Program-made: the position numbers and the translations under genes
Shown here: positions 412 to 63,510 of the stretch, in pieces
Position numbering within the stretch: the stretch's first letter is position 1
Layout of the letters: each line of letters begins with the position of its first letter
Notes under the pieces: generated by a model
What the model was told of the DNA's origin: nothing
What the model saw: only the letters and a program-made list of their open reading frames with translations
The model's database searches: none
NCBI RefSeq assembly: GCF_032854445.1
Contig: NC_088304.1
Coordinates: 35,201,551-35,265,550, forward strand
Length of the DNA: 64,000 nucleotides
From: Liolophura sinensis
Lineage: Eukaryota; Mollusca; Polyplacophora; Chitonida; Chitonidae
Direction: 5' to 3'

Positions 412-3400
412 ATACAACAAATATCCCTAATGAACAAAAGAAAACCTTAAAAAAGCCCAAATTGGAGAAGATCAAGACCCCGCCACCTTTTTCCCCGGTG
501 ACTTGTGAAGCGCTGTTCTTCAAACCCGAAAAGCGCTCAAAGAAAGGTTTTGTGTCTACAGCCTGCAGACCTTCAGCAGGTGAGCACCAAGGTAATGTGA
601 TTAACATATTAGAGTTGATGGGATTGACTGAACAACAATGTCTATCCTGAGTCTATCAGGAACGGTGATAAAAACAGTTTTGAGTGATATTAAGACGAAG
701 GGCCCAGGTGTTGCGTGTGAAACACCTCGTAGCATGGCTCTGTACAGTGGAGCATTTAATGGAAGTGAATGCTGGAGAACTCGTTACACTAACATGGCCA
801 GGTGTAGACAAAACTTGTAGGTTCTGATTTTAAAGGTGGCATCGTGAGCGTGGAGGAGATGTATAAAATGCAACTTAGAAACATGCTTTCTGAGACAAAC
901 ATTTTTAGGTAGTAAAACGGATAAATCCCCCATAAATACCACCGGTGATTGGTTTTCCTGTTGCTTTGCTCTTTAAATCCTAGTCTTTTAAGGGACAGAT
1001 GACTTTTAATTGATAGATGTCAAATATGAAAATATGGTGAAATTGTCTTTGAACATAAACAATCCTAATTCATATCTTTTTTGGTACAGCTGGTTGGCTA
1101 TTTTTAGCCAATATACATGTAATTGTAACAGAAATATTTAGTTTCTTTTTCTTCACATGTTTAGTTCATCTATTGAGCAGCATATTCATATATTTAGTTT
1201 TCCAAAAAACTGGGGGGTAAATGTAATTGTTTTCTGTCAGCACCACTAATATCTGTCCTAATATTAACAGAAGAATTAGGGTATGGGACTTGGCAGTCCT
1301 TAAGTATCATGGAATTGCAAAATGGCTGTATTTTCAGATGAAAACTTTGAAACACCGACAAAAGTGAAGATAGATGAAGGATGGAAGGTTCATATTAACT
1401 CAGATACACAACAGAAACACAGTAAGTTGTGACAGTCTCTTGCAGTTTTGGCTGTGGCTTGTATAAGTTGATAAGTTAGTCAGGCACCATGCAGAGGTCG
1501 GTGGTTTTCTCCGTGCACTCCAGTCTCCTCCACCCCATAAACTTCACCTCTTCCTTTATATTCTTCCTTTATATTGATAAATCATGGTTTTAAAGGTCTG
1601 GAATACCCTGAATGACTGTAAGTTTCTTCCAAGACCAACTTGCCCATTTTTTCTGATTCTGAGAGTTCTATTAATTTTACAAAGATGTTTTGTGGTTTGC
1701 TTGGGGTGGAATTTTACTTGAAAGTTGTAAGTTTCAGCACCAAAAATAATATTTTGTGACATGTATTTTCCTCTAATAATGTACTTTTAGAGTGGAATTG
1801 TAGGTCATTTAGGGCATATTGATTTTTGTGTTTATGGAAAGGATTTATTTGTTTGTTTATCCTCTTCAGCAGTAAACCAGTCAAAATGGCCATTAGCTGT
1901 TACTGAGTTATTCTACATTGATATAATGTTTCACTTTGCTGTTGACATTCTGGGAGCCACTTTCATGAACATATCATAAGTCAGATTCTCGAGGTGGTAT
2001 AGGCTATATTGCCATAAGGTGACATCATCTACGAGAAAAGTTATGAAAAATTGGTTTATGAAGTTTTGTGAAAGTGGTCTGTGAACAGTTTGGACAATGG
2101 ATGTGAAATACGGTTATATGTGACTAATATTATCCTGATCTTCCTACTCCAGATGAGAGCATTTTGAAGGTAATAAATACGGGGTCCATGAAGGATTTAC
2201 AGATGTTACAGACAGTGGGGAAGAAGAGAGCACAGCTAATTCTGGCGTACCGAGAAACTAATGGGCCATACTTAAAGGTAACATTAAAGAGATTAAACAG
2301 AAGTATCATACCTTTTGAGATATACAAGACTTAGCTTGAATGTAGACACAGCTCATCCTGGTGCACTGAGAGACTAATGACCCATACTTAAAGGTAACAT
2401 TAAAGAGAAGTATCATCAATTTTGAGATGTACAAGACTTAGTGTTACAATGTAGACACAGCTCATGCTGGTGCAGTGAGAGACTAATGGTCCCTAATTAA
2501 AGGTAACATTAAAGGGAAATATCATTGATTTTGAGACGTACAAGACTTAGCGTGACAATGTAGACACAGCTCATCCTGGTGCATTGAGAGACTAATGCTC
2601 CATACTTAAAGGTAACATTAAAGAGAAGTATCATTGATTTTGAGACATACAAGACTTAACGAGAAAATGTAGACACATCTCATCCTGGTGCATTGAGAGA
2701 CTAATGCTCCATACTTAAAGGTAAGGTTGGGAAGAGAGGGTCATGATGACAAAGTGGTTTTAATCACTTAATGGGGTTTCAAACCCACCATTGGACTGGG
2801 AATTTCTGGATTCTTCTACAATCAATGTTATTGAGACCTTGGTTACAGTATTAAATCAGTCGCTGATGCTTGTTTGGACTTGGGTACAGTTTAACATCTA
2901 TTGAAGACCATTTGTCTGCCACAGATATTGTGTGCATGTGTACATCAGACTTGGTGCGGTCGCTGTGAGTTCAAGTCCAGCTCATGCTGGCTTCCTCTCC
3001 GGCCGGAAGTGGGAAGGTCTGCCAGCAACCTGGGGATGGTCGTGGGTTTCCCCCGTCGTATAAGTGAAATATTCTTGAGTACGGCGTAAAAACACCAATC
3101 AAAAAAAAAAAAAAAAAAAATACATCAGACTTGGGAAAGTTGCCAGTGACGTTTCAAAGGCCTGTAGTTTACCAGCAGTGATTTGTATAAGTGAAAAATT
3201 CTTGAGTACGGAGTTAAACAGCAATCAAATAAATAAACTGAAGGTAATGTTGGACAGAATCCTCACTTACTATGAGATGTACAAGACTTTATAGGATGGC
3301 AGAAAGATTGAAGTTAGTGTACAGGATAATAAGAAAATAGGATATTCACTCACGTCCAGGTTTCTGATTTGTAGGTAGAAGATTTGAAACTGGTGCCTGG

Positions 3401-5105
3401 TCTGACGGCCAAATATGTGGAGAATTTCCAGAGGGTAATTTGTTCATAATGCGCCTTCACAGTGCCACAGGCTACACAAGTTGTTAGTACAAGCCTGCAC
3501 AGTGCCACTTGCTACACAAGTTGTTAGTACAGGCCTGCACAGTGCCACTTGCTACACAAGTTGTTAGTACAAGGCTGCACATTGCCACTGGCTACACAAG
3601 TTGTTAGTACAAGCCTGCACAGTGCCACTTGCTACACAAGTTGTTAGTACAAGCCTGCACAGTGCCACTTGCCACACAAGTTGTTAGTACAAGCCTGCAC
3701 AGTGCCACTTGCTACACAAGTTGTTAGTACAGGCCTGCACAGTGCCACTTGCTACACAAGTTGTTAGTACAAGCCTGCACAGTGCCACTTGCTACACAAG
3801 TTGTTAGTACAAGCCTGCACAGTGCCACTTGCTACACAAGTTGTTAGTACAGGCCTGCACAGTGCCACTTGCTACACAAGTTGTTAGTACAAGGCTGCAC
3901 ATTGCCACTGGCTACACAAGTTGTTAGTACAAGCCTGCACAGTGCCACTTGCTACACAAGTTGTTTGTACAAGCCTGCACAGTGCCACTTGCCACACAAG
4001 TTGTTAGTACAGGCCTGCATAGTGCCACTTGCTACACAAATTGTTAGTACAAGGCTGCATATTGCCACTGGCTACACAAGTTGTTAGTACAAGGCTGCAC
4101 AGTGCCACTGGCTACACAAGTTGTTAGCACAAGCCTGCATATAAGCAGCCCAGCAACCTGCGGATGGTTGTGGGTTTCCTCCGGGCTCTGCTTGATTTCG
4201 TCCCGACATAATGCTGGCTGCCATCATATAAGTGAAATATTCTTGAGTACGGTGTAAAACACCAGTCACATAAATCATATAAGCAGCCTTTCAAGGACAT
4301 TGTTCAAAAAGTCCACCTGGGAAGGTCTGGCAGCAACCTGCCGATGGTTGTGGGTTTGTCCCAGGCTCTGCCCGGTTTCCTCCCTCCATAAGGCTGGCCG
4401 CCGTCATATAAGTGAAATACTCTTGAGTACAGTGTAAAACACCAATCAAATCAATCCAAAAAAAAAGTCCACATATTTTTGATTTTTCTTTTTTGTGTGT
4501 GCTTTCAAACTGATTAAATGTTCAAAACTCTGAAATGTACAAGTTTTCAAGCTTCAGCCGGCCTATTTTCTCTGAACAATAACTTTTTTTCTCATGTCAT
4601 TTTATTAATTCTTGTGAAAAATCAATGAAGCACTTCGTGATGTTGCCTAGATCCACCACTGCATTGCCTGTTATGCTGGAGACTACTATCTTTACCTACA
4701 GTTAACTAGTAGACAACCACTGATTTTTCATTGGCTGGCTGACTGCAATATACCACAAAATAGCCAGTCAGACAAAAAGTTATGACCTTGTTGAGAAATG
4801 AGTAACTTCCCTTTTTAAGCTCAATGACTTAAGTTAAGTTCTCCATGGAGGCGTCGTTATGACAGCTGACAACATTATAAACATGTTTGATGCAAATCCT
4901 GATTAAAGCACCCAGAGATTTGATTTGAGACAGGACCTACCGTGTTATTGTATCCCTCGTGGATGACACACTGCCAGTGTGTCATTAATTCGTCCCTTTC
5001 TTCTCCTTTATTAATTTTCAAAAAATTTATTATACTCATTAATAACACTGTTTTTTTTTTGTTTCTTTTTTGCAGAGTAACCTGTTTTCAAAACTGATGC
5101 TTTGA
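412..5105 (+). CDS. KIF22: KIF22/Kid-like chromokinesin, 3' part (C-terminal exons)
   Basis: Five exons with matching phase are visible: 412-579, 1338-1421, 2153-2277, 3375-3434 and 5076-5105 (stop TGA 5103-5105). Each intron is GT...AG. The motor domain and start codon lie left of the window. The first exon is basic and proline-containing (KTPPPFSPV, a possible proline-directed phosphosite). Exons 2153-2277 and 3375-3434 encode the helix-hairpin-helix DNA-binding tail typical of KIF22, with the landmarks KVINTGSMKDLQMLQTVG, KKRAQLILAYRETNGPY and VEDLKLVPGLTAKYVENFQ. This follows the human Kid C-terminus closely in order and spacing. Kid is a plus-end kinesin that binds chromatin and moves chromosome arms toward the metaphase plate. 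The product ends in NLFSKLML, slightly shorter than the human tail. An array of duplicated exon-donor copies follows exon 2153-2277, and a 40 bp array follows 3434. The identification is strong; exons further left are not visible. Confidence 0.9.
1612..1826 (+). repeat. Dispersed ~210 bp repeat, copy 1
   Basis: Shares a long diverged stretch with 45505-45713 (same strand) and 48355-48565 (opposite strand). Common blocks include TGATTCTGAGAG, GGTTTGCTTGG, CAGCACCAAAA and TAGGTCATTTAG. It lies in a KIF22 intron. The family is unclassified; no terminal repeats were evident by eye. Confidence 0.65.
2346..2725 (+). repeat. Tandem copies of the KIF22 exon/donor boundary, ~112 bp unit
   Basis: Four copies follow exon 2153-2277. 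Each begins with a diverged version of the exon's last ~50 bases (CACAGCTCATCCTGGTGCA, then CTAATG and CATACTTAAAG) and continues with the donor GGTAACATTAAAG plus intron. The copies no longer read as the original protein. They create four decoy 5' splice sites (the last reads AAAGGTAAGG). Confidence 0.85.
2955..3120 (+). mobile_element. 5'-truncated tRNA-derived SINE with 14 bp target-site duplication
   Basis: Begins within the SINE body (TGCGGTCGCTGTGAGTTCAA), runs through CTTGAGTACGGCGTAAA and ends in a poly(A) run. It is bounded by perfect copies of TACATCAGACTTGG at 2941-2954 and 3121-3134. The tRNA-like head is missing, as expected from incomplete LINE-driven reverse transcription. Confidence 0.9.
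3448..4137 (+). repeat. 40 bp tandem array, ~17 copies
   Basis: Unit includes GCCTGCACAGTGCCACTTGC and TACACAAGTTGTTAGTACA. It starts 13 bases after the donor of KIF22 exon 3375-3434 and fills the first part of the last intron. No exon sequence is included. Confidence 0.9.
4151..4275 (+). mobile_element. 5'-truncated SINE with 13 bp target-site duplication
   Basis: Contains only the SINE 3' half, from CAGCAACCTGCGGATGG to GTGTAAAACACCAGTCACAT. It is flanked by perfect copies of CATATAAGCAGCC at 4138-4150 and 4276-4288. Confidence 0.85.
4319..4460 (+). mobile_element. 5'-truncated SINE
   Basis: SINE 3' half from GGGAAGGTCTGGCAGCAACC to CACCAATCAAATCAATCC plus an A-run. AAAAAGTCCAC occurs just before the element and again at its A-rich end, consistent with a target-site duplication. 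Confidence 0.75.
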
Positions 5106-34260: not shown

Positions 34261-34269
34261 ACAATCTGT

Positions 34270-36630
34270 CACCATGTAAAACCTCCGTGTTCTGCAGCAG
34301 TAGGATATACCCTAATTCCTCAACCTTTTTGCATGTGAAAGAACAACTTACAGTGCAGCTTATGCACATTATTGATATAAGTGTGGAGACAAAATCACAC
34401 CTGTTGGATTGGCCAATTTCTTGGCTTCACAAGAGGTATAATTTTGTCAGTCAACACAAACTAGTGCCTACAAAATATGCTTGAATAAGCACCTTAAAAA
34501 CATGTGAAAAGCTTGAAGAATTACAGTAGTGAGTATTTAATGCATTTATTGTATACAGTGTAATGTATAGTGTATCTTACATTCCAACTGTGTAGTCTTT
34601 TTGCAAGTTAAGTGCCTTGTTAATGTGATCTCTACAGCTCTAATTTTTTTTTTTTTTGAATGTTCATATATATATATACAATAATATACGCAACGTCTCT
34701 ACGTAAATTTGGTGTATAGAACAGTGCAAGGAGACAAAAAACCCTTATTGGTTGCTGTCTGAATACAATGATGGTAAAGTCATTTGTGAAATTTTTTAAA
34801 TCTCTTGTATATCTTTTTATTAAACATGTCGTAGATATTTATAAGTGTGTTACAAATGACATGTTTTCTAACCAATATAGAGTGCATGTATGGCGGATAT
34901 TTAATTGTATTTTTTTGGTTTTTAGATAGTATTTCTACAAATTTGTAATAAATTTTTGTACTAGATTTTTCTTTTGAAGTTTGTCAGATTGATTTTCAAA
35001 GAGAAATACATGTATTTCTGTATCTCTTTCCTCTGTTGCAAAAGATTTTTGGAGGACAAACTTGCCCTAGAGTATCAAACATATATAATTTATAGATAAA
35101 ACAAAAATGATTTTCATTGAACAGATTTATGACTTAAATTTGAAAATATTTATGGACACTATGTGCTTAAAGTGAAAATGAAGATCAAAAAATTTTCAGT
35201 GAAAAGACCTCTGAAACCATATCCAAAACTACCTGAACTTTCTACGCTGGTTTTTTTTAGGGAACATTTAACCTGACGATGATGACACAAACTTTATTTT
35301 CACCCTAAATACTCGAGCTGTTTGGAATAGCTTGTATCACAGAGTGTGTAGACATTAGACTGGCACACTTCAGAAGGAGAAAAAACATCCCTGGAATGCA
35401 AGATTTTCAATGACTTCTTTCATTTTTAACATTTGACTGCATTTTATTTAATCGCAAAATACATGTATGTAAAAAAATATGTGATGGTAGTTTCTAATAG
35501 TAGTTTTGATTGATCTTTTTGGTGGGGATTTTTAAATGTTTAACAAAGATAAAGAAGTACTCCAGACATATTGCAAAAAAAAATGTGATGTAACATGTTT
35601 TGTAACTTGTCAATTTTAGCAGTGTTCAGATCATGTATTTATTTATACAGTAGGCTGCATGTATGTATTTGTACAGAACATTTATGTGTACAGAATTCCG
35701 TGTTATGGTTACGCACTTTTGGTTAGGTTCTCAAATGAAGTATTATTCTAGTCTAACTGAGAAAATCAGCAAATACTTCAGATAACATAATAATTTAACC
35801 TTTAAATATGTACAAAAAGTGTAAAATGTATTTAAAATATTTTCTTCTTCCTTGGGGAATGCAGGATAGAATGAAAAAAAGGAAAAAAAAAAAAAAAAAA
35901 GGACAAAGTAAGGGTGATCAGAAGGACTATATCGCTTGTGCCAGTATCTAAAAGGATGTGCAAATGTTGATATCATGATGTGAAGGCATTTTTGGCCCTA
36001 AACAATGGAATGTAATGAAATGAAATAATTTTACGGGAATAACAAGGAATGGAGTCCTGACATGAATAATTGTCTGTGGAGCTTATTATATATAGGTTTG
36101 TACAAGTACTGTACAAAAGTCGCATCTACAGGTACTACTGTAATTTGATCAGTACATGCATGCCTTTTGCGGAATTGTAGTTTGGTTTTTTTTTTTTGGT
36201 ATTAGAAAAATCATTTATTCTGGCATAGAAATGACAATGTGTTTTATACAGGAATATTTTACAGTAATAGTGGATGTAATTATTTGGTTTTATGGCATCT
36301 TTTAATTTATCCACACAATTGTATATCAGTTTTGACTGTGTACAGGAGAAAAAAGTAACAATAATAAACTTTTCATTTCTTTATTATTGTCAGCTGTATG
36401 GGCTTAATTCTTTGGTCCTATGTTCAGGTGGTTGTCTTGTTACAATTTTAACACCTTGTATTTTCTAGGTCCATGGTTGAACTATTTAGCTTAATGGCAT
36501 TAATGCTATGGTGCAGCTATGGCTAATGAGCTGACATAAATAAAAGTAGCTGACCTGCCGCTGTATGGCTAAGGCTTTTGCAGTTGTGCAGTCTTCATTG
36601 AACCAGCACGGTTTGCATATTTGTGTGTGG
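34270..36630. other. AT-rich LRRC74-CHEK2 intergenic sequence
   Basis: No coding exon was recognised. It contains many T and A runs and several AATAAA-like hexamers (for example GTAATAAATTTT near 34947 and AATAATAAAC near 36360) that could end LRRC74 transcripts. None can be chosen from sequence alone. Confidence 0.4.
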
Positions 36631-41800: not shown

Positions 41801-44800
41801 GACCCCCACCCTATCTCATCCATATATGCATGAGCTCTCAGGACCCCCACCCTATCTCATCCATATCTGCATGAGCTCTCAGGACCCCCACCCTATCTTA
41901 TCCATATATGCATGAGCTCTCAGAACCCCCACCCTATCTCATCCACATCTGCATGAGCTCTCAGGACCCCCACCCTATCTCATCCATATATGCATGAGCT
42001 CTCAGGACCCCCACCCTGTCGCATCCATATCTGCATGAGCTCTCAGGACCCCCACCCTATCTCATCCATACATGCATGAGCTCTCAGGATGCCCACCCTA
42101 TCTCATCCATATCTGCATGAACTCTCAGGACCCCCACCCTATCTCATCCATATCTACATGAGCTCTCAGGACCCCCACCCTATCTCATCCATATCTGCAT
42201 GAGCTCTCAGGACCCCCATCCTGTTGCATCCATATCTGCATGAGCTTTCAGGACCCCCACCGAATCTCATCCATATATGCATGAGCTCTCAGGATGCCCA
42301 CCCTATCTCATCCATATCCGCATGAGCTCTCAGGACCCCCACCCTATCTCATCCATATCTGCATGAGCTCTCAGGACCCCCACCCTATCTCATCCATATC
42401 TGCATGAACTCTCAGGACCCCCACCCTATCTCATCCATATCTTCATGAGCTCTCAGGACCCCCACCCTATCTCATCCATATATGCATGAGCTCTCAGGAC
42501 CCCCATCCTGTTGCATCCATATCTGCATGAGCTTTCAGGACCCCCACCGAATCTCATCCATATATGCATGAGCTCTCAGGACCCCCACCGTATCTCATCC
42601 ATACATGCATGAGCTCTCAGGATGCCCACCCTATCTCATCCATATCCGCATGAGCTCTCAGGACCCCCACCCTATCTCATCCATATCTGCATGAGCTTTC
42701 AGGACCCCCACCCTATCTCATCCATATATGCATGAGCTCTCAGGACCCCCACCGTGTTGCATCCATATCTGCATGAGCTTTCAGGACCCCCACCGTATCT
42801 CATCCATATATGCATGAGCTCTTAGGACGCCCACCCTATCTCATCCATATCTGCATGAGCTCTCAGGACTTGTGAAATTCCGACTGGGCTTTATTACTAG
42901 ATGCCAGGGCCTCCGTGGCTCAGTTGGTTACCGCGCTAACGCAGCGTAATGACCCAGGAGTCTCTCACCAATGCGTTCGCTGTGAGTTCAAGTCCAGCTC
43001 ATGCTGGCTTCCTCTCCTGCCGTACGCGGGAAGGTCTGCCAGCAACCTGCGGATGGTCGTGGGTTTCCCTCGGGCTGTGCCCGGTTTCCTCCGACCATAA
43101 TGCTGGCCGCCGTCGTATAAGTGAAATATTCTTGAGTACGGCGTAAAACACCAATCAAATAAATAAATACTAGATACCATCAAAGGACAGTTTCATTTGT
43201 GATTATTAGACACTGACTTATCCTTTCAGCAATCAACAAGTTCAGGGATACATATATTTTTAGAAGACTGCAGTAGCAATGGGACTTTCATAAATGGGGA
43301 AAAAGTGGGTAAGTAATAAATGCTGTAAACCACATGTAATAGTTTGATAACAGTGTGCCTCTTCCAGGTTTCTTGTGACATTTTGGTAAACTCTAAATGT
43401 GGCTTTACATGTACATAATCAAACATAATTTCTGACCTCCAGATTACATGTTTTTATCCTGTAGATGTGTGAATAAACAATTAACGCGCAAATTATCAGA
43501 TGACAGCTTTCTAAATATCCTCAACTTCTCTTTTGGCTAAACTTAGTAACTCACTCCTGTTAACAGTTGTGCAGTTTTCCATTCATTCATATGCCTGTGG
43601 TGGCCTGTAAAGAGATAATCGTACATCCATAATAGCATCTCACCAAGGAGAGTTAAAGTTCAAAACTCATGACTGCTGGGGGCCTCTGTGGATGGGGTGG
43701 TTAATGTGTTTCCACCGAGTGGTTAGTTTCCACCGGGCTGAAGACCAGCCATACTGCTGGCCTCCATCGTATAAGTAAAATACTCTAGAATGTATGACGT
43801 AAAACACCAATCAAATAAATAATTAAAATCATCGCAGCCAAGATTTAATCCTTGTTGTAGGTATAGGTTGAATAGAAGTAAGTGGTTGCTAATTTTGTAC
43901 CTGGTTTTTGTTGGCCTAGCTGTTAATGATGATGGTATATCTTACCTTTGAAACAGTGCATTTTAATTTCAAACTCTTTTCCTCTTACATGTGGTATTTT
44001 AATCACTCATCTCAAACTTTGTACATGTGATATTGTTTCAGGGAAGGGAAATAAGCAAGTGTTAAGCAACAATGATGAAATAGCTCTGGCCATGAAGAAA
44101 AACAAAGGTACGTCCGTTTTCTTTCTCGTTTGGGAAGCTTTGATGTTTACAATTCTCACCTTATCTCTGTGCAGTTATACATGTACTGGACATCACCAAA
44201 AGGCATCACATGTATGTTTTTTGTTAAAGAGCTACTTTAGTTCTAAGACTTGTATGTCTAGAAAGCAAGGTTAAACGATAAGGATTGAGATAGACAGACT
44301 TATTTTCTTAGCTTGGTGCTGTTCTAGTTTGCGAGGATAACACAGAAACAAAAGTCTTCTGTCGTTTCCAATTTTACCTGTAGTGACATCGTGGAAGAAC
44401 ACTTGACATCATCATCACTGATGTATAGTCACAAATGACATTGTACTTCGAATGCGCATGATGTCATTCCAGCATAACTGACTTTCTCAAGGTCATAGCT
44501 GCCTGATTCATCGTCACATAAGGAATATCTTGACGTCACATCAGGAAAATTTTAAGGAAACTGCCGAAGATTTTGTTTTTGGGGACTCTTCACTTATAAG
44601 GGTTAAAATGAGTTATTCATCGTAAATGTTTTTGAACATTGGTGCTAACTGCATTCTGCAGGGTATACCTTCATATCAGTTTTAACATTTCCGCCTAGCC
44701 TTTCTTGGGACTGAAGTAAGACTTTAAATTTGATTAATCTCTCATCCAATAAACTTCAGAGTTAGATTCCAAAGATGTCATTTTAAGGCTGTTATGCTAT

Positions 44801-47800: not shown

Positions 47801-50800
47801 GAGATCGCATCTGGGGCTGGGCTGGGCTGGGAGATCACATCTCGGGCTGGGCTGGGAGATCGCATCTGGGGCTGGGCTGGGAGATCACATCTGGGGCTGG
47901 GAGATTACATCTGGGGCTGGGCTGGGAGATCGCATCTGGGGCTGGGCTGGGCTGGGAGATCAAATCTGTGGCTGGGCTGGGGGATCGCATCTGGGGCTGG
48001 GCTGGGGGATCGCATCTGGGGCTGGGCTGGGAGATTGCATCTGGGGCTGGGCTGAGAGATCGCATCTGGGATTGGGAGATCACTCTGGCTCGGCTAGCTA
48101 TTAAAGCGTTGCTTTTGCCACGGTCAGTCGTCCTGTGACTAGTGAGGAGACAGGCTTGATTTTAGCCAACATCCTGCCTGAGGATTCATGTTAGAATATT
48201 CCCACATGTGAACTTGACAGCCATTGTGTGAGTGAAAATTCCTTGATCACGGTTTGAAATCTCAGTCAACTACACAAATAAATAAACAGGCTATTTCATT
48301 GCTCTCAAGGTGATTATCCTGTGTACTTTGCTCGTGTTAACAGACTTTCTTTTAAAACTGCCCTAAGTGACCTAAAATTTCGCCCACAAAAGTGCATTTT
48401 TAGAGGTAAATAAATGTCACAAGATACTGTTTTTGGTGCTAGAACTTTTCCACTAGAATATCATCCCATGATCCAAGCAAACCTCAAAACACCATTCTAA
48501 AATCAATAGAACTCTCAGAATCAGGAAAAATGGGCAAGTTAGTCATGGCCAAATTTATGGTCGCGTATAGTATATAACTTTAGAAGGCTAGGTCACAGTT
48601 GTCATTTTCTGTTGACTGTTTCAGAGTGGAGGGTGGAGAACTGTTTGACAGAGTGATCAACGCTGGCAAGATAGAGGAGCCTGTCTCTAAGCTGTTATTC
48701 TACCAGATGGTCTGTGCTGTCAAGGTATGGCAAGGGATTTAGCTTATGTCATAGTGTAAGTGATGGTGTCCTGTAACAGGGAAAGCAATGCTTAAGTCAA
48801 AGTTACAGGTGATGTCTTAGATAGTATTGCATGTATTGAGCTCAGGCTTTGCACACAAGAAGAGCACAATAACATGAGGGTGATGTTTCAATGGTGATGC
48901 TCTATGTGCATATTAATTACTGCTAATTACAGAATTCTCGACTTAGTGTCTATGACGGGCGAGCTCTTAGGAAGCCTTGTAAAAGTTTGGCTGCAGCAAG
49001 GAGCTCCAAATGTCATTCAGTATTGCTGTAGGGTCAGATTTTGTAAATCTTGTCTCTAAACCATTGGCCATTTAACCATGTTGGGAAACTGTGGTTTAAT
49101 GACTATGACAGATAAAGTTTTCTCTATTTGAAGGTTGGGTGTTCATAACCTCTGTTGAGTCTGTAGCTTTGTTGTGTATACAGCTCTCTTGTGTGCAGTC
49201 TGAATGGCTGCCTCCATGCATAAACCAGACTACCATTGTCCAAATAAAGTATTCTTGAACATGAATAAGAATTCAAACTTTTTCCTAAAATACAAACAAC
49301 TTCAAACGGTTTTGTATCTACTTTGTTTTACAGTATTTACACGACAAAGGCATCACTCATAGAGATCTGAAACCAGAAAATATTTTACTGGCGGGAGATG
49401 AGGACAGAACATTGATCAAGGTGACCGACTTCGGACTGTCTAAGTTCGTGGATGCGAACACAATGATGAAGACTTTCTGCGGTACTCCAACGTACCTGGC
49501 ACCAGAGATTCTGGAGACTGCCGGAGTCGGTAGTTACACCAAAGCCATTGACTGCTGGAGTCTTGGAGTTATATTGTTTATATGGTAATGGCATGTTTGT
49601 GAACATGACACTTTCGTGCACCAGATCTAACATGTGAGGTCAAAAAAAGTTAAGAATAAAAGTAATGTCAAATTGGCCAATTGATGCTTGAAAATTCGTA
49701 AATATTAATAGCACATTTCAGCTGATTTATTAACAGATAATGGTTAATATCTTCAATACAAGTTTGGGTCATTTGATTTTTTGAGATTTGTAACATTGGT
49801 AGCCAGATTTCATTTGATTTGTAACATTGGTAGCCAGATTTCATTTGATTTGTAACATTGGTAGCCAGATTTCATTTGATTTGTAACACTAAAATCAACT
49901 AGATACATCATACCATCACTGACCATTTGTTTTTGGGTTCATACGACGCTAAAAACTCTTTTCCAGCCTGGTGGGTTATCCCCCTTTTTCAGACGAGCGA
50001 AAGGACATGGATTTGCCCAAGCAGATTTTGGGGGGCCATTTCTCATTTCCAGAAGAGTATTGGAAAGACATCTCTAATGAGGGTAAGCATAGTGGTGTAA
50101 ACCGCTCCCATCTGTCAATCAAGGACACGCATTTGACTAATCATAATGGTTTAAAAATAATAATAAAGGGGGGAGGTGGGCCGTGTGGGGCCCATATATT
50201 TCTGACAAATCTTTGACGGCATTGTCTTGTTTTTTCCATGAACAAGTACACAGTTGTTTATGTTGGGAAAAAGCCTATCAAAGTTAAATTTTTACTTTCA
50301 ATTCAGGGTTATAGATCTAAGTTTCTGTAGTTGACACATTAAATTTAAATCCTGGTTTTACATTCATTTTTGGGAAGTGCATAGCCTGCATGTTTGGCTG
50401 CTATAGTTTTGTATGTAGAGAATAAAGTTACCAATGTTATTTATGGGACTTACTTGTACATGTAGTTTGCATGATCAGCTGCTGATTGTAAGATCTCCTT
50501 AATATGAGGACGTTTCATTAGGAGGTCTTTATGTTCTCCGTGAATGAAATGGGGGCATCCTATATTTGCAACTGTGTGTTTGTGGATGTGTCAGTGTGTT
50601 TATGCCATGCATATGTGGTGTAATCTGGTGGGCAAATTGTGCCAAAATGTGTTTGTTTATACCATGCATATGTGGTGTAATCTGGTGGGCAAATTGTACC
50701 AAAATGTGTTTGTTTATACCATGCATATGTGGTGTAATCTGGTGGGCAAATTGTACCAAAATGTGTTTCTTTATACCATGCGTATGTGGTGTAATCTGGT

Positions 50801-53800
50801 GGGCAAATTGTACCAAAATGTGTTTCTTTATACCATGCATATGTGGTGTAATCTGGTGGGCAAATTGTACCAAAATGTGTTTGTTTATACCATGCATATG
50901 TGGTGTAATCTGGTGGGCAAATTGTACCAAAATGTGTTTGTTTATACCATGCATATGTGGTGTAATCTGGTGGGCAAATTGTACCAAAATGTGTTTGTTT
51001 ATACCATGCATATGTGGTGTAATCTGGTGGGCAAATTGTACCAAAATGTGTTTGTTTATACCATGCATATGTGGTGTAATCTGGTGGGTAAATTGTACCA
51101 AAATGTGTTTGTTTATGCCATGCATATGTGGTGTAATCGGGTGGGTAAATTGTGCCAAAATGTGTTTGTTTATACCATGCATATGTGGTGTAATCTGGTG
51201 GGTAAATTGTACCAAAATGTGTTTGTTTATACCATGCATATGTGGTGTAATCTGGTGGGTAAATTGTACCAAAATGTGTTTATACCCTTCAGCCATTGAT
51301 CTGGTGAAACAACTGCTGGTGACAGACCCCAAGAAGAGACTGACGCTACAGGAGGCTCTCCTACATCCATGGTTTAAGGTCAGACTGTTGTGAACTTGTC
51401 AGTGAAACGTCTGATGTAACTCCTGTGTTTTAGCGTTTGAGGAGACTGAGCAGACTGAGGCTGTTAATGCGTCTTTTGTCTGTCCTGCTGTCTGTCTGTC
51501 TTATTCTCAGTCAGCTGTCACTTAATAGACAAAAAAAAAAAAAAAAAAGAAAATAGAGAATCAGCATTATATAAGTCAATTTATCCGGCCACTTTTATAT
51601 GTTTTTGTAATTCCAGGTGGGATGTCTGGGTGTTTATTGTCTGACACAATGTATAATAGATATTTTCCACTTGGCTTGGAATGTGTTCAACCTTTGAGAA
51701 AACAAATCTGTTCCAATCTGCGAAATTCAGAATGAGAAATTAAAAAATAATTAATTCGCGTAAATGCACTTGCAAAAAGCACATAGGAGAAGATAATCAC
51801 AAATTGTGGAGTTAGCTATTTACTTTTTTTTCAATTCTGTACGATTGAGAATTCAAAAAATGTTGTTCTGCCTTGCTGATTTTTGTACGAGACGTTTAAA
51901 ACTGTACAGTAGAATTTTGGGTGTTGTATCACAGGATGAGGACATGAAGATTTGTGCCAAGGCGCTGATGTACCCTCTAGCTGAAGGAATGGTGCCCCCA
52001 GGAGTGGTATGTACCCGTTCTCTGCTTGTACCCTTTCTGGAGCTCTTACATATCCTTGTATCAAGAGTGCTGTGTTTCACTTGAAGTTAAGCATTTCTGA
52101 AGTGACACATTTTGTGTGACACTGAATGATTCTTGAACCTTTAGGGAACTTTACAGTTTGATAAATTTCTTATCAGAAGAACAAGTGCTGGCATCAAAAG
52201 TACATTTTCAGACCTTCACATGCCTGTGGTAGAGAGTGTTTACATAACAAACTGTATGTGAAATGTAGGAGTATGGAACAGTAAGTTTGGCTACAGAACT
52301 GGTAAGCATGTGGTTTCCTTGCAACCAAAGACGTGTGCGCGAAACAAAAAAGGCAGTTGCTACATTTGCCTTTAAAGTTAGCATGAATTTAGTGCATATT
52401 AAAAAGTCCAAATAAAAGTTATAAAATATTTCTCCTGGTGATGAAACTGACACATTTGGGGATTGGTGCATGTTGTTTACAGGAGAATGGTGCTGATGCT
52501 GGAGTAAGTTGTGTCCGCACATATCCGGGTTTATTTTGTGTTGTTTTTGTTGTGGTGGGGGGAACAGTCTACTCTGTTAACTTAATTTCTTACCCTTTTC
52601 ACAAGTTCAAGGCCATTTTCAAATGCAATTTAAGTGGTAGAGTATGGAGGTAAAACAAATTTAAGACTTTCACGTAACCTCAAACAAATTTAAGACTTTC
52701 ACATAACCAGTCTCAAGGTTTGTCAGGCACCTGGTAAAATTTGCTGCTTTCCTCAAGGCACTCAGGTTCCTGCACCTGACAGTCCTGACTGTGGTTGTGT
52801 TCAAAATACAACACAATTCTTGAATACAGCATTAAATATGATTCAGATAAATGTATAAATAAATCAAATTCTTTAAAAAAAGTAGCCATCTGGTTACGCG
52901 ACACCTACATGTAATAGATTAGAGAATATAGTTGTGTGAAAAGTATGATTCGATCCGTTATACAACTTTGAACTGACAACGGAACGGGGGCAGTTTTGAG
53001 GGGTTTCATGGTGTTCTGTTCAGTTTTATGTCACTTTCATTGTTATATCATGACCTGCGTGTATTAACTAACACATGTTGTTACAATTTCATTGTTCAAA
53101 ATTGTGCACGTTTTGATTAAGTGAATCATTTGCACCTAACACACCATTATGTACAACATGTTGTGAGATCTTCCATTTTATATCCTCTGTATCCTCCGGC
53201 CAACAAGGTCTCCAGACAGAAACCTTCTCTTACTGATTTGCCATAAATCCATGTATTATCGGGTTAATAACTAAAAGGATTGGGTTCTTTGGAGTCTAGT
53301 TCTTTCTGGCTTTTATCACATTGCCTTGCTAAGTTATGGCTGGTATAGTGGCATTGGGTAAATGTGAAGTGATACGTACAGGGGTTAGGAAACATTAAGA
53401 AATCCTAAAATCCCAGAAGTATATGATACGTACAGGGGTTAGAAAACATTAAGAAATCCTAAAATCCCAGAAGTATATGTAGGAAGTGAAGCTTAATCGC
53501 ATTTTGTTCACCCAGAGCATTTGGCTGTGATTGTGAGCAGGTACCATCTTGGTAGGTATGACTGAATTCAGTGCAGTAAACTACCGGTACTCAATACTTA
53601 TATTTCACGCGTATTATCGTGTTAGTACATGTGTATGAAAAAGATCCTGCTAAAAAATGTCTCCCAAGTTGAGGTGTCAGAAATATATCACCAGTAGGCA
53701 GGAACAATTTAGTTTGCTAATGTACATATTTTTGTTTAAAGGGCAATAAAAATACCTGTAAAAATGAAGTGAACATCAGTAGACTTTTTTTTTTTTTATT

Positions 53801-56378
53801 GAGTTGAATGCAGTCAAATGTTTTGATTGTCGGGTTGTAAGTAAAGATATTTTCAGACAGAGTTTTCAATGCCGCAGGCTTTCTACCAATGCTACTCCAT
53901 CGTGTTTCTCAAAGTAACAAATTAATATAGTAAATGTCCTAAAGTTTCATCTTGGGACTTGGAAAGTGTATCCCAGGAGTCATTGCGTTGGTTGTGGTTG
54001 TTACTGACTGTGTGCTGTGGGAGCGCGGGAGAAGTGGTCAGGGGATTATACTGACAGTTTAAGAATGTAATAAACAAGGTCCCGTTTCACTGAGCCGTTA
54101 GTCTATGCTCCTACCACCAACAGTTCACGCTTCACTGAGCAGTTAGTCTATGCTCCTACCACCAACAGTTCACGCTTCACTGAGCAGTTAGTCTATGCTC
54201 CTACCACCAACAGTTCATCCTTCACTGAGAAGTTAGTCTATGCTCCTACCACCTACAGTTCACGCTTCACTGAGCAGTTAGTCTATGCTCCTACCACCAA
54301 CGGGGCCTCCGTGGCTCAGTCGGTTAGCGCGCTAGCGCAGCGTAATGACCCAGAAGCCTCTCACCAATGCGGTCGCTGTGAGTTCAAGACTAGCTCATGC
54401 TGCCTTCCTCTCCGGCCGTACGTGGGAAGGTCTGCCAGCAACCTGCGGATGGTCGTGGGTTTCCCCGGGCTCTGCCCGGTTTCCACCCACCATAATGCTG
54501 GCCGCCGTCGTATAAGTGAAATATTCTTGAGTACGGCGTAAAACACCAATCAAAAAAAAAAAATCCTACCACCAACAGTTCACGCTTCACTGAGCAGATA
54601 GTCTATGCTCCTACCACCAACAGTTCACGCTTCACTGAGCAGTTAGTCTATGCTCCTACCACCAACAGTTCATGCTTCACTGAGAAGTTAGTCTATGCTC
54701 CTACCACCTACAGTTCATGCTTCACTGAGCAGTTAGTCTATGCTTTTACCACCAACAGTTCACGCTTCACTGAGCAGTTAGACTATGCTCCTACCACCAA
54801 CGCTTCACTGAGCAGTTAGTCCATGCTTCTACCACCAACACTTCCACGCTTCACTGAGCAGTTAGTCCATGCTCCTACCACCAACAGTTCATGCTTCACT
54901 GAGCAGTTAGTCTATGCTCTTACCACCAGCAGTTCACGCTTCACTGAGCAGTTAGTCCATGCTCCTACCACCAACAGTTCACACTTCACTGAGCAGTTAG
55001 TCTATGCTCCTACCACCAACAGTTCACGCTTCACTGAGCAGTTAGTCTATGCTCCTACCACCAACAGTTCACAGTTCACTGAGCTGTTAGTCCATGCTCC
55101 TACCACCAACAGTTCACACTTCACTGAGCAGTTAGTCTATGCTCCTACCACCAACAGTTCACGGTTCACTGAGCAGTTAGTCCATGCTCCTACCACCAAC
55201 AGTTCACACTTCACTGAGCAGTTAGTCTATGCTCCTACCACCAACAGTTCATGCTTCACTGAGCAGTTAGTCCATGCTCCTACCACCAACAGTTCACGGT
55301 TCACTGAGCAGTTAGTCTATGCTCCTACCACCAACAGTTCACACTTCACTGAGCAGTTAGTCTATGCTCCTACCACCAACAGTTCACACTTCACTGAGCA
55401 GTTAGTCTATGCTCCTACCACCAACAGTTCACGGTTCACTGAGCAGTTAGTCTATGCTCCTACCACCAACAGTTCACGCTTCACTGAGCAGTTAGTCTAT
55501 GCTCCTACCACCAACAGTTCACACTTCACTGAGCAGTTAGTCTATGCTCCTACCACCAACAGTTCACACTTCACTGAGCAGTTAGTCTATGCTCCTACCA
55601 CCAACAGTTCACGCTTCACTGAGCAGTTAGTCTATGCTCCTAGCACCAACAGTTCACGCTTCACTGAGCAGTTAGTCTATGCTCCTACCACCAACAGTTC
55701 ATGTTGCAATCATAATAATCTTAGTCCATGCACTTCCCAACATGTTGATTGTTTTTTTATTGTTATTTTGTGATAAATGGGAATTTGGGAGAAAACTCTG
55801 TGGAGATTAGGTATGACTACCCAGTATATGTACCTTTATTCACGTGGAGTGTCATGTCAAATATCCATATTTAAATGACAGGGCTGTCCGTATCACGAAG
55901 CTGTAGATAAATAGGGATATCAACTGATACATGTAGTTAGGTAGTGGCCCAGGCCTTGGTGTGAACAGAAGTATTTACCCCCGACTGCAAGGCCAGAATT
56001 TATACCTTTTCTTTTTTTTAACTTTTTATTTCTTTCTAAAGAATAATTTCACCAACGGCTGTTCACAATGATGATTGACAAACCGCCCCAGTCTGACAGC
56101 CACTGACTGATTGGTTAACATCTGATAGACAGCCGGCAAGTCCTAAGCAATTAAGAAATGAGCTTGATAGTTCTATGCTCTCTCCAGACGCGTAGTATGT
56201 CTACTTTGTTAAATTGCCCTGTTGACAATATAAACATGTAGATCTGAAAGTTTTCATAATTTTGCACATATTTCAGCCTGCCCCAAAGAAAAGACCCCGA
56301 GAAGGTGGAGAGGAGCCTGTTGCTAAGAGGAAGGGTTCTGAGGATACGATCACACCCCCAGAAACACCGTCTCCATGA
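38786..56378 (+). CDS. CHEK2: CHEK2 (Chk2) DNA-damage checkpoint Ser/Thr kinase
   Basis: Fifteen exons: 38786-38999, 40246-40370, 43230-43308, 44042-44107, 45102-45192, 45767-45875, 46332-46385, 46780-46844, 48625-48724, 49334-49584, 49967-50082, 51293-51378, 51935-52006, 52483-52503 and 56277-56378. All phases agree: 516 aa (human 543). The SQ/TQ N-terminus has SSSQ (24-25) and METLPTQDL (Thr36-Gln37, aligning with human Thr68, the ATM site). The FHA domain (~75-160) has FGRGESCDY and SSNGTFING. The kinase domain (~188-452) has GRGACGEV, Lys213 in [12 protein letters not shown] (310-317), DFG (333-335), and an activation loop [15 protein letters not shown] retaining Thr348 and Thr352 at the human autophosphorylation sites. 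The C-terminal tail has a basic KKRPR...KRK nuclear signal. In the family, ATM phosphorylation causes FHA-mediated dimerisation, activation and phosphorylation of p53, CDC25 and others in the nucleus. All catalytic residues are present. A 21 bp microexon (52483-52503) in the tail looks unusual. Confidence 0.97.
41757..42870 (+). repeat. 41 bp tandem array, ~27 copies
   Basis: Unit includes AGGACCCCCACCCTATCTCA, TCCATATCTGCATGAGCTCT. It lies in CHEK2 intron 2, between FHA exons 2 and 3. Higher-order similarity is visible: blocks with ATCCTGTTGCATCC and GGATGCCCACC recur together. Confidence 0.92.
42907..43167 (+). mobile_element. Full-length SINE with 12 bp target-site duplication
   Basis: GGGCCTCCGTGGCTCAGTTG head to CACCAATCAAATAAATAAA tail. 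Flanked by TACTAGATGCCA (42895-42906) and TACTAGATACCA (43168-43179). It is inserted 25 bp beyond the end of the 41 bp array, in CHEK2 intron 2. Confidence 0.9.
43678..43830 (+). mobile_element. Internally deleted SINE
   Basis: GGGGGCCTCTGTGGATGGGG head joined to CATACTGCTGGCCTCCATCG and the tail CACCAATCAAATAAATAATT; most of the body is missing. It lies in CHEK2 intron 3. Confidence 0.65.
45505..45713 (+). repeat. Dispersed ~210 bp repeat, copy 2
   Basis: Matches 1612-1826 in the same orientation and 48355-48565 in reverse: GGCCATAAATTTTG, TTTCCTGATTCTGAGAG, GGGATGATATTCTACTGG and TTTTAGGTCATTTAG. It sits just upstream of CHEK2 exon 6. Confidence 0.75.
45985..46108 (+). mobile_element. 5'-truncated, diverged SINE
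   Basis: GTCTGCAGCAACCTGCAGC, CCATATTGCTGGTCGTATAA, CTTGAGTATAACATAAATG and the tail CAATCAAATAAATAAATAAT; internal deletions. In CHEK2 intron 6. Confidence 0.6.
46965..47240 (+). mobile_element. Second-family SINE, 5'-truncated
   Basis: Starts at TTATGCCAAAGACTTTAAAA, continues GTTGCTGCCTCGCTTAGAGC, GGTGTCGTGTCTAGTGTCTT and ends near CGTCATATGACTGAAAAATT. In CHEK2 intron 8. Responsible for a spurious 147 aa ORF. Confidence 0.65.
47605..48085 (+). repeat. GC-rich ~21-26 bp tandem array
   Basis: Irregular units of GGGCTGGGAGATCGCATCTG with extra GGGCT blocks, in CHEK2 intron 8. The G-rich strand has many short G-runs. Its shadow ORFs (MRSPSP-type, minus strand) are not genes. Confidence 0.9.
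48355..48565 (-). repeat. Dispersed ~210 bp repeat, copy 3, reversed
   Basis: Reverse complement of copies 1 and 2 (CTCTCAGAATCAGGAAAAAT, AAGCAAACCTCAAAACACC, TGACCTAAAATTTCGCCC). In CHEK2 intron 8. Confidence 0.75.
49780..49890 (+). repeat. ~32 bp direct repeat, three copies
   Basis: TTGATTTGTAACATTGG plus TAGCCAGATTTCA occurs three times in CHEK2 intron 10. Confidence 0.8.
50586..51291 (+). repeat. 57 bp tandem array abutting the CHEK2 exon 12 acceptor
   Basis: About twelve nearly identical units of TTTATACCATGCATATGTGG, TGTAATCTGGTGGGCAAATT and GTACCAAAATGTG. The final unit breaks off as GTTTATACCCTTCAG, the acceptor of exon 51293. The period is divisible by three, so two plus-strand frames and at least one minus-strand frame stay open (251-275 aa). 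One plus frame runs into the true exon 12 frame. Confidence 0.93.
53360..53480 (+). repeat. Two-copy ~58 bp direct repeat
   Basis: GATACGTACAGGGGTTAG, AACATTAAGAAATCCTAAAA and CCCAGAAGTATATG occur twice in tandem in CHEK2 intron 14. Confidence 0.8.
54085..55705 (+). repeat. 45 bp tandem array, ~29 copies, split by a SINE
   Basis: Unit of TTCACGCTTCACTGAGCAGT, TAGTCTATGCTCCTACCACC and AACAG in the last CHEK2 intron. Because 45 is divisible by three it yields a 316 aa spurious ORF (54823-55773). A SINE at 54302-54563 interrupts it. Confidence 0.93.
54302..54563 (+). mobile_element. Full-length SINE inserted in the 45 bp array, perfect 13 bp duplication
   Basis: GGGGCCTCCGTGGCTCAGTC head to CACCAATC plus A-run. 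TCCTACCACCAAC, itself part of the array unit, flanks both sides (54289-54301, 54564-54576). Apparently the youngest-looking copy in the window. Confidence 0.95.
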
Positions 56379-59684: not shown

Positions 59685-59983
59685 AATATAGCACTGGATC
59701 ACTGTGATGATGTGCAGTGATGTTGAGGATGACTGAGGTTGTGTTGGTGCTCTTTGAAACTTCTAAAATGTACATGAAGAAGTACCTTTATTTTTGTCAG
59801 ATTTTTTTATTTTTATTTTTATTTTTGGCCCAGTTTTCAGAAGATGAAAATATTTCTTGCCTTTCACAATATTTAGCTGAAAAATTCAAGATTTGCATTA
59901 AAATATCTGGAGTTCAAAGCTTCTTCTTGCATGAAAAGTTTTTTCATGTGCATTATCCTCAATAGCCCTTCACAACTAGTGCA

Positions 59984-62009
59984 TCAGAGTTTGGCCATTT
60001 TCATATCGTCATATCTGTCCCTCACTCGGTATATCATCTGATGAGCCGCGTCAAAGTGAGGCTGGAGCCTCTGTGTCACTCTCTCCACCCAAGCATTGAC
60101 CAGCGGTCTCTGGGTAAAAAGGGCCTCTTCTTTGACAGCATACAGCTGAGTCAGCTCACACACACCCAGCACGTCACCCACAGAGATTTCATTTCCGCTA
60201 ACAAACGGCGTTTTCAAGAAAGCTGTCTCGAGTCCATCCAGGGCCTCATTCACCAGCTTTTTCCATCTTTGGACTTTTTCTTGATTAATTGGCTTTCCCT
60301 TTGCCATTGGTATTATCAACTGGACAAAAAAACAACAGGTGATTGAGGATTTATACATTGTTAGTCTGACCTGAGCAAAGATCATGTTAATATTTGACTT
60401 TCCTACTATAATTGTTGTTCTGCGCCATAAGAATATTTCACTTACACAAGGCAGCCAGCATTATGGTGGGAGGAAACTGGGCAGAGTGCGTGAAAAATTG
60501 ACGACCATCCTCAGGTTGCTTACAGACCTTCACACATACGGCCAGAAAGGAAGACAGCATGAGCTGGACTTGAACAATGGGGTACAATGCTGGTTTCACT
60601 TCAATAAGAAAGTTTCACTTCAGACATACAGCCAGTTTTACTGGAATAAACCTGCAACCTTCAGCAAGTAACTGACAAATTTTTCCACAAGTGATGATCA
60701 TGCATAGATTTCATCCACCTAGGGAGCTCTGTCTTATGTTCTGGTGGAAAGCGAGTGATTTCCTATGAACTTCGTGTAAGATGACCTCAAATGGCCAAGA
60801 AGAATGATAAGGAGTCTGTGAATTTACATTCAGTGAGCTCATTGATAACAAGGTTAAGTTGAAGCTCGGGTCGGACTAGCCGCAACTGCTTATATGGTTA
60901 CTAAACTAACGTATGTACTATTGTTACAAATGTTACCCGGCTCAAAGCTGGAAATTCATCCCTGCACTGTTCAATTTAGGTCCGGAATCCCTACAACTGC
61001 ATGAAGCAGAGACACTGGGTAAGCCCACCACCTTACCATATTTTCTCCACATTGTCGCTATACATCACCAGGATAGTAGACACGTCCCTTTTTGCTTTTG
61101 GGGCATCCTGTACCGTGAATGGAAGTTGATTTGTGTAAGTGACAACATGGTGGCTGGTGACGTGTTCAGATGAGTCAGTAGGGGGTATTTTGTTTGTATT
61201 TTCCCATTTCCAAACTTCACTCTGGAGAGTAAAACTAAAGGAACAATTCTGAAGGTAGGTGTCTAGAGTCCTTTTCAGATGTCCCCAAGAGTTTGAAGGC
61301 CATAACCTCTGATGGTACAAGGGTGTAATAAAAATGTACATGTAGTGATGGGTGGGCAGGAAGTTTCCTCTGTCGATAGAGCTCACAAATCTGATAAAGA
61401 CAGCCAATTAATATAATTGTTGTAAAGTAACAAAGTTGAAGTTGACTTCACAGGACAGATGCAGCTGTGAAGAAAGTAGTCAGGTGGATAGAGGCCAAAT
61501 TTTTTCAACTGTTGATGCACAGAGATCAGGTTTTATGCATGTTAAGTCTGAAGACTATATGTGGTTCACTTATTAGGGATAGGTGACTGGAAATGCAAAA
61601 ATTGGTAGTCGACACCCTGCCCCTGAATAAGCTAGGGGAAAGCATTAATTAATCAATATAAACTTCCACTTTGACCACTGAAAATCTGTGCTCATTTGTG
61701 AAGGTATTCTGCATGAACCCAGCATTCAATGACTGGCACTTACTAAGTCACTTTTCACTTACATCCGTAAAGCACGTGGCGTTCAACAGAGCATACACAT
61801 GTAGAATCGATCAAATTGAAGAGTGCGTTGTGGAGAGAATAGCAGGAACTATACAGACCTTTTCCCTGAAGAGTGAGGCAGCAGCTATCCGTAATCCTAG
61901 GTGATGCCAGCTCATGTACTCGTCCACTCTAACCTGAGCCTGGAGGTCACGTGGATACCAGTGGTCTGCCACATTGTACTTCACGCACAGATACTTCAGG
62001 ATGGCAACA
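59984..62009 (-). CDS. GSTT1: Theta-class glutathione S-transferase, 3' part
   Basis: Two exons on the minus strand: 62009-61859 (first base completes a codon, then 50 codons) and 60319-59984 (111 codons and TGA). The junction is phase 0 with GT/AG ends. Exon 1 in view begins VAILKYLCVKYNVADHWYPR and continues LQAQVRVDEYMSWHHLGL, which matches the end of the thioredoxin-fold domain and start of the helical domain in GSTT proteins (WYP, RVDEYL.W.H). The last exon has the C-terminal helical domain with SGNEISVGDVLGVCELTQ and ends DDMKMAKL. The N-terminal exons with the catalytic Ser lie beyond the right edge. Theta GSTs conjugate glutathione to small electrophiles such as halogenated compounds in the cytosol. 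Tandem copies of its splice acceptor fill 62011-63510. It converges with CHEK2. Confidence 0.92.
60430..60575 (-). mobile_element. SINE fragment, reverse orientation
   Basis: GAATATTTCACTTACACAAG, CAGCATTATGGTGGGAGGAA, CATACGGCCAGAAAGGAAG and AGCATGAGCTGGACTTGAA; both ends are missing. In the GST intron. Confidence 0.75.
60576..61858 (-). other. Intron of the GST gene
   Basis: AT-rich unique sequence apart from the SINE fragment at 60430-60575. No additional exon was recognised, and the flanking exons join in phase without one. Confidence 0.5.
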
Positions 62010-62010
62010 C

Positions 62011-63510
62011 TACAAATACAAGACTACACATGTAAGGATACTTCAGGATGATAGCACTACAAATACAGCACTACACATGTAAGGATACTTCAGGATGATA
62101 GCACTACAAATACAGCACTACACATGTAAAGATACTTCAGGATGGCCACACTACAAATACAGCACTACACATGTAAAGATACTTCACTCAGGATACAGCA
62201 CTACACATGTAAAGATACTTCAGGATGGCCACACTATAAATGCAGTACTACACATGTAAGGATACTTCAGGATGGCAACACTACAAATACAGCACTACAC
62301 ATGTAAGGATACTTCAGGATGATAGCACTACAAATGCAGCACTACACATGTAAGGATACTTCAGGATCATAGCACTACAAATACAGCACTACACATGTAA
62401 GGATACTTCAGGATGATAGCACTACAAATACAGCACTACACATGTAAGGATGCTTCAGGATGGCAACACTACAAATACAGCACTACACATGTAAGGATAC
62501 TTCAGGATGATAGCACTACAAATACAGCACTACACATGTAAGGATGCTTCAGGATGGCAACACTACAAATACAGCACTACACATGTAAGGATACTTCAGG
62601 ATGATAGCACTACAAATACAGCACTACACATGTAAAGATACTTCAGGATGGCCACACCACAAACACAGCACTACACATATAAGAATACTTCAAGATGGCC
62701 ACACTACAGACACAGCACTGCACATGTAAGGATACTTCACTCAGGATGTCAACACTACAAATACAGGACTACAAATGTAAGGATACATCAGGATGATAGC
62801 ACTACAAATACAGGACTACACATGTAAGGATATTTCACTCAGGATGGCAACACTACAAATACAGCACTACACATGTAAAGATACTTCACTCAGGAGACAG
62901 CACTACACATGTAAGGATACTTCAGGATGATAGCACTACAAATACAGCACTACACATGTAAGGATACTTCAGGATGATAGCACTACAAATACAGCACTAT
63001 TCATGTAAGGATACTTCACTCAGGATGGCAAACACTACAAATACAGCACTACACATGTAAAGATACTTCACTCAGGATACAGGACTACACATGTAAGGAT
63101 ACTTCAGGATGATAGCACTACAAATACAGCACTACACATGTAAAGATACTTCACTCAGGAGACAGCACTACACATGTAAGGATACTTCAGGATGATAGCA
63201 CTACAAATACAGCAGTACACATGTAAGGATGCTTCACTCAGGATACAGGAATACACATGTAAGGATACTTCAGGATGATAGCACTACAAATACAGCACTA
63301 CACATGTAAAGATACTTCACTCAGGAGACAGCACTACACATGTAAGGATACTTCAGGATGATAGCACTACAAATACAAGACTACACATGTAAGGATACTT
63401 CAGGATGATAGCACTACAAATACAGCACTACAAATGTAAAGATACTTCACTCAGGATACAGCACTACACATGTAAGGATACTTCAGGGTGATAGCACTAC
63501 AAATACAGCA
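62011..63510 (-). repeat. ~46 bp array of the GST exon acceptor and first codons, ~33 copies
   Basis: On the coding strand each unit holds TGTATTTGTAG (the true acceptor), then a version of TGTTGCCATCCTGAAGTATC (first bases of the exon, VAILKY), then CTTACATGTGTAGTGC. Many units carry GCTATCATCC instead. A shorter variant with CTTCACTCAGGA joins some units. It lies upstream of the exon in the gene's own orientation, within its intron. Confidence 0.92.

Follow-up and report, generated by a model that had tools for sequence, protein, structure and literature searches.

Why do tandem repeats in unrelated genes of a chiton lie across the borders between exons and introns, and do they lie there more often than random placement would put them? 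The question is raised by a stretch of 64,000 nucleotides of Liolophura sinensis DNA (the window, meaning the whole stretch that was analysed), in which the original prediction had pointed to six arrays in KIF22, an LRRC74-like gene and a GST gene and had proposed a process that favours splice junctions.

Arrays at the exon edges of the window

Sequence and reading frames place five genes in the window: the end of KIF22, a CHCHD2-like gene, an LRRC74-like gene, CHEK2 and, on the minus strand, a GST theta-like gene. The second of these is an open frame, also on the minus strand, which we take to be CHCHD2-like. The LRRC74-like gene, whose putative name is kept from earlier work, has leucine-rich repeats and EF hands. 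The spliced gene models stay open across the array-bearing introns, with frames read from the genome sequence. In addition, human KIF22 (2edu) aligns without gaps over the KIF22 junction that bears array 1, and the alignment to GST theta (2c3n) begins at residue 1 of the GST exon.

For each of 69 window junctions, 15 exonic and 15 intronic bases were taken as a 30-mer and the best copy was sought within 3 kb. Eight junctions reach at least 23/30 and represent seven separate arrays (Table 1), the eighth junction, acceptor 21828, being part of the array of donor 21921. The best copies score 28/30 for the KIF22 exon end at 2277 (found at +116), 30/30, 29/30 and 23/30 for the LRRC74 donors 21921, 24444 and 32259, 30/30 and 23/30 for the LRRC74 acceptors 29002 and 25838, and 28/30 for the GST acceptor 62009. 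The junctions ranking just below these score 20/30.

All six predicted arrays are therefore real. They are all present in the TRF output, the one given at 32260 being listed from 32386, and each holds the adjacent exon edge with its splice site, as had been claimed, with junction 30-mers recurring at 23/30 to 30/30. The list was nevertheless incomplete, for it overlooked the array at LRRC74 acceptor 25838 (25721-25851), and the KIF22 array, placed at 2346, starts at about 2253, inside the exon. The left edges of this array and of array 6 (32245) were read directly from the sequence, and both arrays were classed as spanning by hand, edge extension having overlooked them. In array 2 the 106-bp unit is nearly the whole exon plus the donor, and the array occupies almost the entire intron.

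Table 1. Junction-spanning arrays of the window and the exons they adjoin (positions in the 64-kb stretch)
Feature	Position	Strand	Basis
KIF22 exon, source of array 1 (last 25 bp and donor)	2153-2277	+	open frame; aligned to human KIF22 2edu
Array 1, donor type, 109-bp unit, ~4 copies and authentic exon edge	2253-2724	+	TRF 2292-2724
LRRC74-like exon, source of array 2	21828-21921	+	open spliced gene model
Array 2, donor type, 106-bp unit and derived 35-bp unit intermixed	21832-23681	+	TRF, junction 30-mer
LRRC74-like exon, source of array 3	24277-24444	+	open spliced gene model
Array 3, donor type, 106-bp unit including 85 bp of exon	24360-25356	+	TRF, junction 30-mer
Array 4, acceptor type, ~21-bp unit over acceptor 25838	25721-25851	+	TRF, junction 30-mer
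LRRC74-like exon downstream of array 4 acceptor	25838-25953	+	open spliced gene model
Array 5, acceptor type, 120-bp unit, 8 copies	28146-29102	+	TRF, junction 30-mer
LRRC74-like exon (EF-hand region starts), source of array 5	29002-29244	+	open spliced gene model
LRRC74-like exon, source of array 6	32174-32259	+	open spliced gene model
Array 6, donor type, 35-bp unit, degenerate	32245-32607	+	TRF 32386-32607; junction 30-mer 23/30
GST theta-like exon, source of array 7	61859-62009	-	frame, alignment to GST theta 2c3n
Array 7, acceptor type, 47-bp unit and 83/94-bp variants	61989-63510	-	TRF, junction 30-mer

The other 14 of the 21 window arrays with a period of at least 15 span no annotated junction. 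Two of them lie close to one: a 40-bp array at 3453-4139, 18 bp from KIF22 donor 3434, and a 57-bp array at 50597-51281, ending 11 bp from the acceptor of the CHEK2 exon at 51293. Both were considered as degenerate arrays of the same kind and left uncounted, their similarity to the exon edge not being significant (P=0.66 and P=0.18, respectively). Elsewhere, a 45-bp array in a CHEK2 intron (54086-55701) is interrupted by a SINE-like insertion at about 54301-54563, and a 41-bp array of 27 copies in another (41761-42869) adjoins a SINE-like element at about 42907-43168. About 118 bp past the stop codon of the LRRC74-like gene begins an array with a 93-bp unit and 14 copies (32965-34270), which probably belongs to the 3' untranslated region.

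Junction-spanning arrays in an independent sample

The window had been selected because the pattern had been seen there, so an independent sample was drawn. The whole genome (609,464,459 bases, 632 contigs) was searched for exon matches to the Pfam domains Myosin_head, Kinesin and Cullin, chosen without regard to repeats; the best 65 of 213 candidates were scored for myosin and the best 122 of 207 for kinesin. Matches were clustered by eye, and groups of at least four within about 9 kb gave 31 loci covering 279.8 kb. Donors and acceptors were paired by script from frame and profile continuity where possible, yielding 257 junction calls, 148 of them paired. One call, a second match on a copy inside the L018 array, was dropped; the L013 call sat on a copy and was moved to the authentic donor, which scores 21/30; and the L032 acceptor 3657, with four exonic bases, was left out of the count.

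Scores of 23/30 or above were obtained for 13 of the 257 junctions, corresponding to 12 arrays. Nine of these rest on single and three on paired junction calls, and all 12 were checked by eye, the coding frame being compared with known family motifs. The shortest exon overlaps are 6 (L013), 7 (L004) and 9 (L024) bases. In the myosin locus L020 (about 945-1641 in gene orientation) a pair of exon edges recurs in diverged form 603 bp upstream (21/30 and 22/30), where an alternative exon may have been duplicated. The assembly also contains a contig of 108.7 kb (C99) with seven COX1 matches at intervals of about 15.5 kb, which is probably a mitochondrial-genome concatemer that was not removed. A mitochondrial fragment read by eye carries ND3, ND2, COX1, COX2, ATP8 and ATP6, which is the ancestral molluscan order.

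TRF arrays with a period of at least 15 (21 in the window, 81 in the sample, 102 in total) were compared with a null in which the array unit is placed at random but not wholly within an exon, spanning being defined as six bases on each side of a junction. This is fairer than counting bases, because an array in an intron accounts for a large number of bases, whereas only the founding unit can reach a junction; per base, junction 30-mers are in fact repeated less often (8/69) than non-coding positions (26% of 2084). Of the 21 window arrays, 7 lie across an annotated junction, where random placement predicts 1.09 (P=8e-5). The expectation becomes 1.19 with GC-weighted placement (P below 1e-4) and 2.01 when the longest period of each array is used (P=0.0016). 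For the sample the count is 12 of 81, where random placement predicts 2.19, or 2.39 with GC weighting and 3.79 under the most conservative null, that of the longest period (P=2.7e-4). Since L018 was sampled partly because its profile match falls on an array copy, the results were repeated without it (11 against 2.36 expected, P=1.5e-5), and once more after also removing three arrays whose units hold fewer than 10 exonic bases (8 against 1.87, P=4.5e-4). Split by gene family, the excess is found in myosin (6 against 0.90, P=1.5e-4) and cullin loci (2 against 0.15, P=0.009) and is weaker in kinesin loci alone (4 against 1.34, P=0.04). A preference for GC was rejected as the cause, as weighting the placement for it barely shifts the expectation.

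The prediction that array units overlap junctions more than randomly placed ones is thus borne out in the window and in the 31 independent loci alike, and a 3-6-fold excess of junction-spanning arrays is supported. Chance or an assembly artefact seems a very improbable source of it. The window was picked after the pattern had been noticed, but the whole-sample P stays below 5e-4 in five versions of the null. HiFi coverage is just 14x according to the accessible text on the published assembly, which also gives an average read length of 8.3 kb; the longest array in window and sample measures 3.4 kb, and copies carry point differences, both of which speak against an artefact.

Over window and sample, 19 of 325 junctions (about 6%, or about 1 in 17) bear an array, 12 being donors and 7 acceptors. 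The remaining 83 of the 102 arrays lie over no annotated junction, exons outside the searched domains being unannotated. Hidden junctions were sought in 53 intronic arrays away from junctions: an acceptor-like site occurs in sense in 13 (against 17% of 1082 control windows) and in antisense in one (against 12.6%), and donor-like sites, in 7 of 53 on either strand, show no difference.

Anatomy of the units and origin of the arrays

The units, about 21-140 bp long, consist of unspliced exon and intron sequence arranged head to tail, and copies within an array differ by point changes. The exonic share of the unit ranges from 0.08 to 0.85 and is consistent with a uniform distribution (Kolmogorov-Smirnov P=0.54), in a test of low power (n=19) with depths partly set by hand. 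With breakpoints so evenly spread, the junction lies within the duplicated segment and does not mark its ends. Anchoring of the units at the splice site, as had been proposed, is thus not supported; neither breakpoint falls at the junction. The process favouring exon edges that the original prediction invoked agrees with the 3-6-fold excess, but its action at the splice site itself does not agree with breakpoints that lack a preferred point.

Whole-genome queries from arrays 3, 5 and 7 match only their own locus, so that the dispersal of units over many loci that would be expected of introners or transposable elements was not seen for these three arrays. With the KIF22 query, among the best 40 of 409 candidates, all matches elsewhere come from its SINE-like end and none from its array part. 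RNA-mediated copying, or a cut at the splice junction, had been offered as the mechanism. The location at splice junctions, and nothing else, agrees with it; units that join unspliced exon and intron head to tail do not fit an RNA intermediate, nor does the absence of copies elsewhere for three array queries and, among the candidates scored, for the fourth. Nicking at junctions likewise finds no counterpart in the breakpoints, which show no preferred point around the junction (n=19, low power). We regard both routes as highly implausible.

Head-to-tail unspliced units and breakpoints away from the junction point instead to local duplication of DNA. The arrays are very probably mirages, formed by in-place tandem duplication of an exon edge that later expanded, the outermost copy being kept with its exon. 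A short DNA segment across an exon edge would first be duplicated in tandem, and slippage or unequal exchange would then expand it into a minisatellite array. The outermost copy would remain joined to its exon and, judging from the frames, could be spliced into the normal coding frame, the remaining copies sitting in the intron with decoy splice sites. Selection presumably purges duplications within exons, which would leave survivors visible at the edges.

In array 5, the array examined for this, copies 2-8 are open in frame with the 120-bp unit, and an inner acceptor, if used, would add 40-residue repeats to the LRRC74-like protein (28282-29244). A translated coding repeat was considered and rejected, as the variants show no codon constraint: they are spread evenly over the codon positions (15/14/13), and the synonymous ones number 10 of 42, where 24% is expected, which indicates neutral variation.

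Why exon edges carry more arrays

A first explanation of the excess is mutational: exon edges may be founded as duplications more often, through transcription-linked breaks, R-loops or effects of nucleosomes or polymerase pausing. The size of the excess is in its favor, and so is the density of arrays that lie within 100 bp of a junction but were not counted as spanning (16 against 9.1 expected, 1.75-fold, P=0.017). This second signal is weaker at 50 bp (8 against 4.6, P=0.08) and at 200 bp (22 against 17.4, P=0.13), and, being modest, it indicates that the effect is strongest for arrays that truly span. SINE tails (67 sites) served as a control for insertion. None was found within 50 bp of junctions in 14.9 kb, which favors a mutational bias, although their density too is higher between 50 and 400 bp (2.8-3.1 per 10 kb) than beyond (1.9-2.0). 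A crowding near exons like that of transposable elements was rejected as an explanation of the arrays, since the mild crowding is shared by SINE tails, hence not peculiar to arrays, and falls far short of the junction excess. Breakpoints without a preferred point do not favor a mutational bias, nor does the lack of young arrays: junctions hold 0 of the 22 arrays with fewer than three copies (0/19 junction arrays against 22/83 others, Fisher 0.011), with only 0.54 two-copy junction arrays expected. We consider more frequent founding a real possibility, though short of probable.

Alternatively, founding may be uniform, and arrays that touch an exon may last longer and grow, their deletion being constrained and their exonic copy held fixed. 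Junction arrays have more copies (median 13.4) than arrays more than 100 bp away (4.8, P=0.0024), near-junction arrays having 8.8 (P=0.07), and the lack of junction arrays below three copies fits growth and survival better than a founding bias, although with so few expected it does not decide. Copy identity is lower in junction arrays (median 86%) than in other arrays of at least three copies (90%), as if they were older, but other arrays of fewer than three copies also show low identity (86.5%), which makes it a poor clock. Moreover, 3-6-fold is a large effect for such a cause. Growth and survival may plausibly account for the excess, again without being the probable answer.

Finally, selection may keep decoy splice sites, or tolerate units whose decoys are harmless, as an AG|GT edge used as acceptor regenerates a donor (compare recursive splicing). 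GT or AG is retained in 0.82 of copies against 0.72 of intronic control pairs (P=0.027; retention is higher in 12 arrays and lower in 7), copies within an array not being independent; a looser first control gave 0.87 against 0.76. The decoy selection suggested earlier agrees weakly with this figure, but one array, L002, has lost GT in 3/3 copies. Donor arrays are rich in CAG|GT edges (7/12 against 32/152 other donors, Fisher 0.008) and AG|GT edges (11/12 against 85/152, 0.015), in exploratory, post hoc comparisons of eight tests followed by two more. Among single-call sample donors the CAG|GT difference is 4/7 against 10/49 (P=0.06), and acceptor arrays give no signal (2/7 start with GT against 22/154). 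Selection of this kind is rather unlikely to explain the excess. If it holds, the AG|GT enrichment would mean that duplications are tolerated where a decoy acceptor rebuilds the donor.

Comparison with known systems

Mirages are tandem duplications of intron-exon borders that were named in the amphioxus Adh gene and later extended to globins (PMC3087553) and to troponin C and PGBD5 (PMC3902484). The accessible text of the 2010 paper calls their mechanism unclear and proposes them as a source of new introns (PMC3087553), and regular splicing and length instability have been reported for them. The chiton arrays are known from one haploid assembly, with splicing read as open frames. Among the papers listed in the literature searches, a set whose reach left most subscription papers outside, we recognised no report of mirage-like repeats in molluscs or chitons. 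A 27-bp minisatellite repeat described in an abalone TSSK1-like intron is also tandem and molluscan, but the available description mentions no exon edge in the unit.

In a leading model of intron gain, reviewed in PMC3443670 and shown for an RdRp case in potato (PMC4974935), tandem duplication of sequence holding splice signals creates the intron, at least as the accessible parts of these papers describe it. The chiton units hold splice signals too. However, the window arrays sit within introns that already exist and fall short of the splice site at the far end (array 2, for example, stops at 23681, ahead of the next exon at 23724), so they did not create these introns as the model states, although they could seed new ones. 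A genome rich in mirages would let the process be followed between related chitons. It also carries a warning for annotation, as such arrays confront the annotator with dozens of spurious splice sites and exon fragments. It is conceivable, although we hold it doubtful, that tandem repeats tend to grow at exon edges in animal genomes generally, in molluscs as well as cephalochordates and not as a peculiarity of the latter, and that AG|GT units are preferentially tolerated because a decoy acting as acceptor restores the donor. If true, the genome would thereby keep a reserve of duplicated splice sites able to heal themselves, on which new introns and exon extensions could draw.

The likeness to the amphioxus cases described in the accessible reports (Adh3, BflGb6, BflGb9, troponin C and PGBD5) is close. 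There, minisatellite-like units of 10-160 bp, a range comparable to that of the chiton units, cover 5' and 3' borders in several genes, and many copies keep AG or GT, as in the chiton. Here, 19 arrays (7 from the window, 12 from the sample) place tandem units that include exon sequence over an exon-intron border, both border types are represented, as they are in the amphioxus globins, and the genes are unrelated: KIF22, LRRC74-like and GST in the window, and members of the kinesin, myosin and cullin families in the sample. By these features the chiton arrays are mirages, a known kind. Unlike the amphioxus reports, of which the accessible text lists cases, they have a chiton host and a measured frequency and excess over chance. 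What was an amphioxus curiosity is thus carried into a second phylum with a number attached, about one junction in 17, several times what chance would give.
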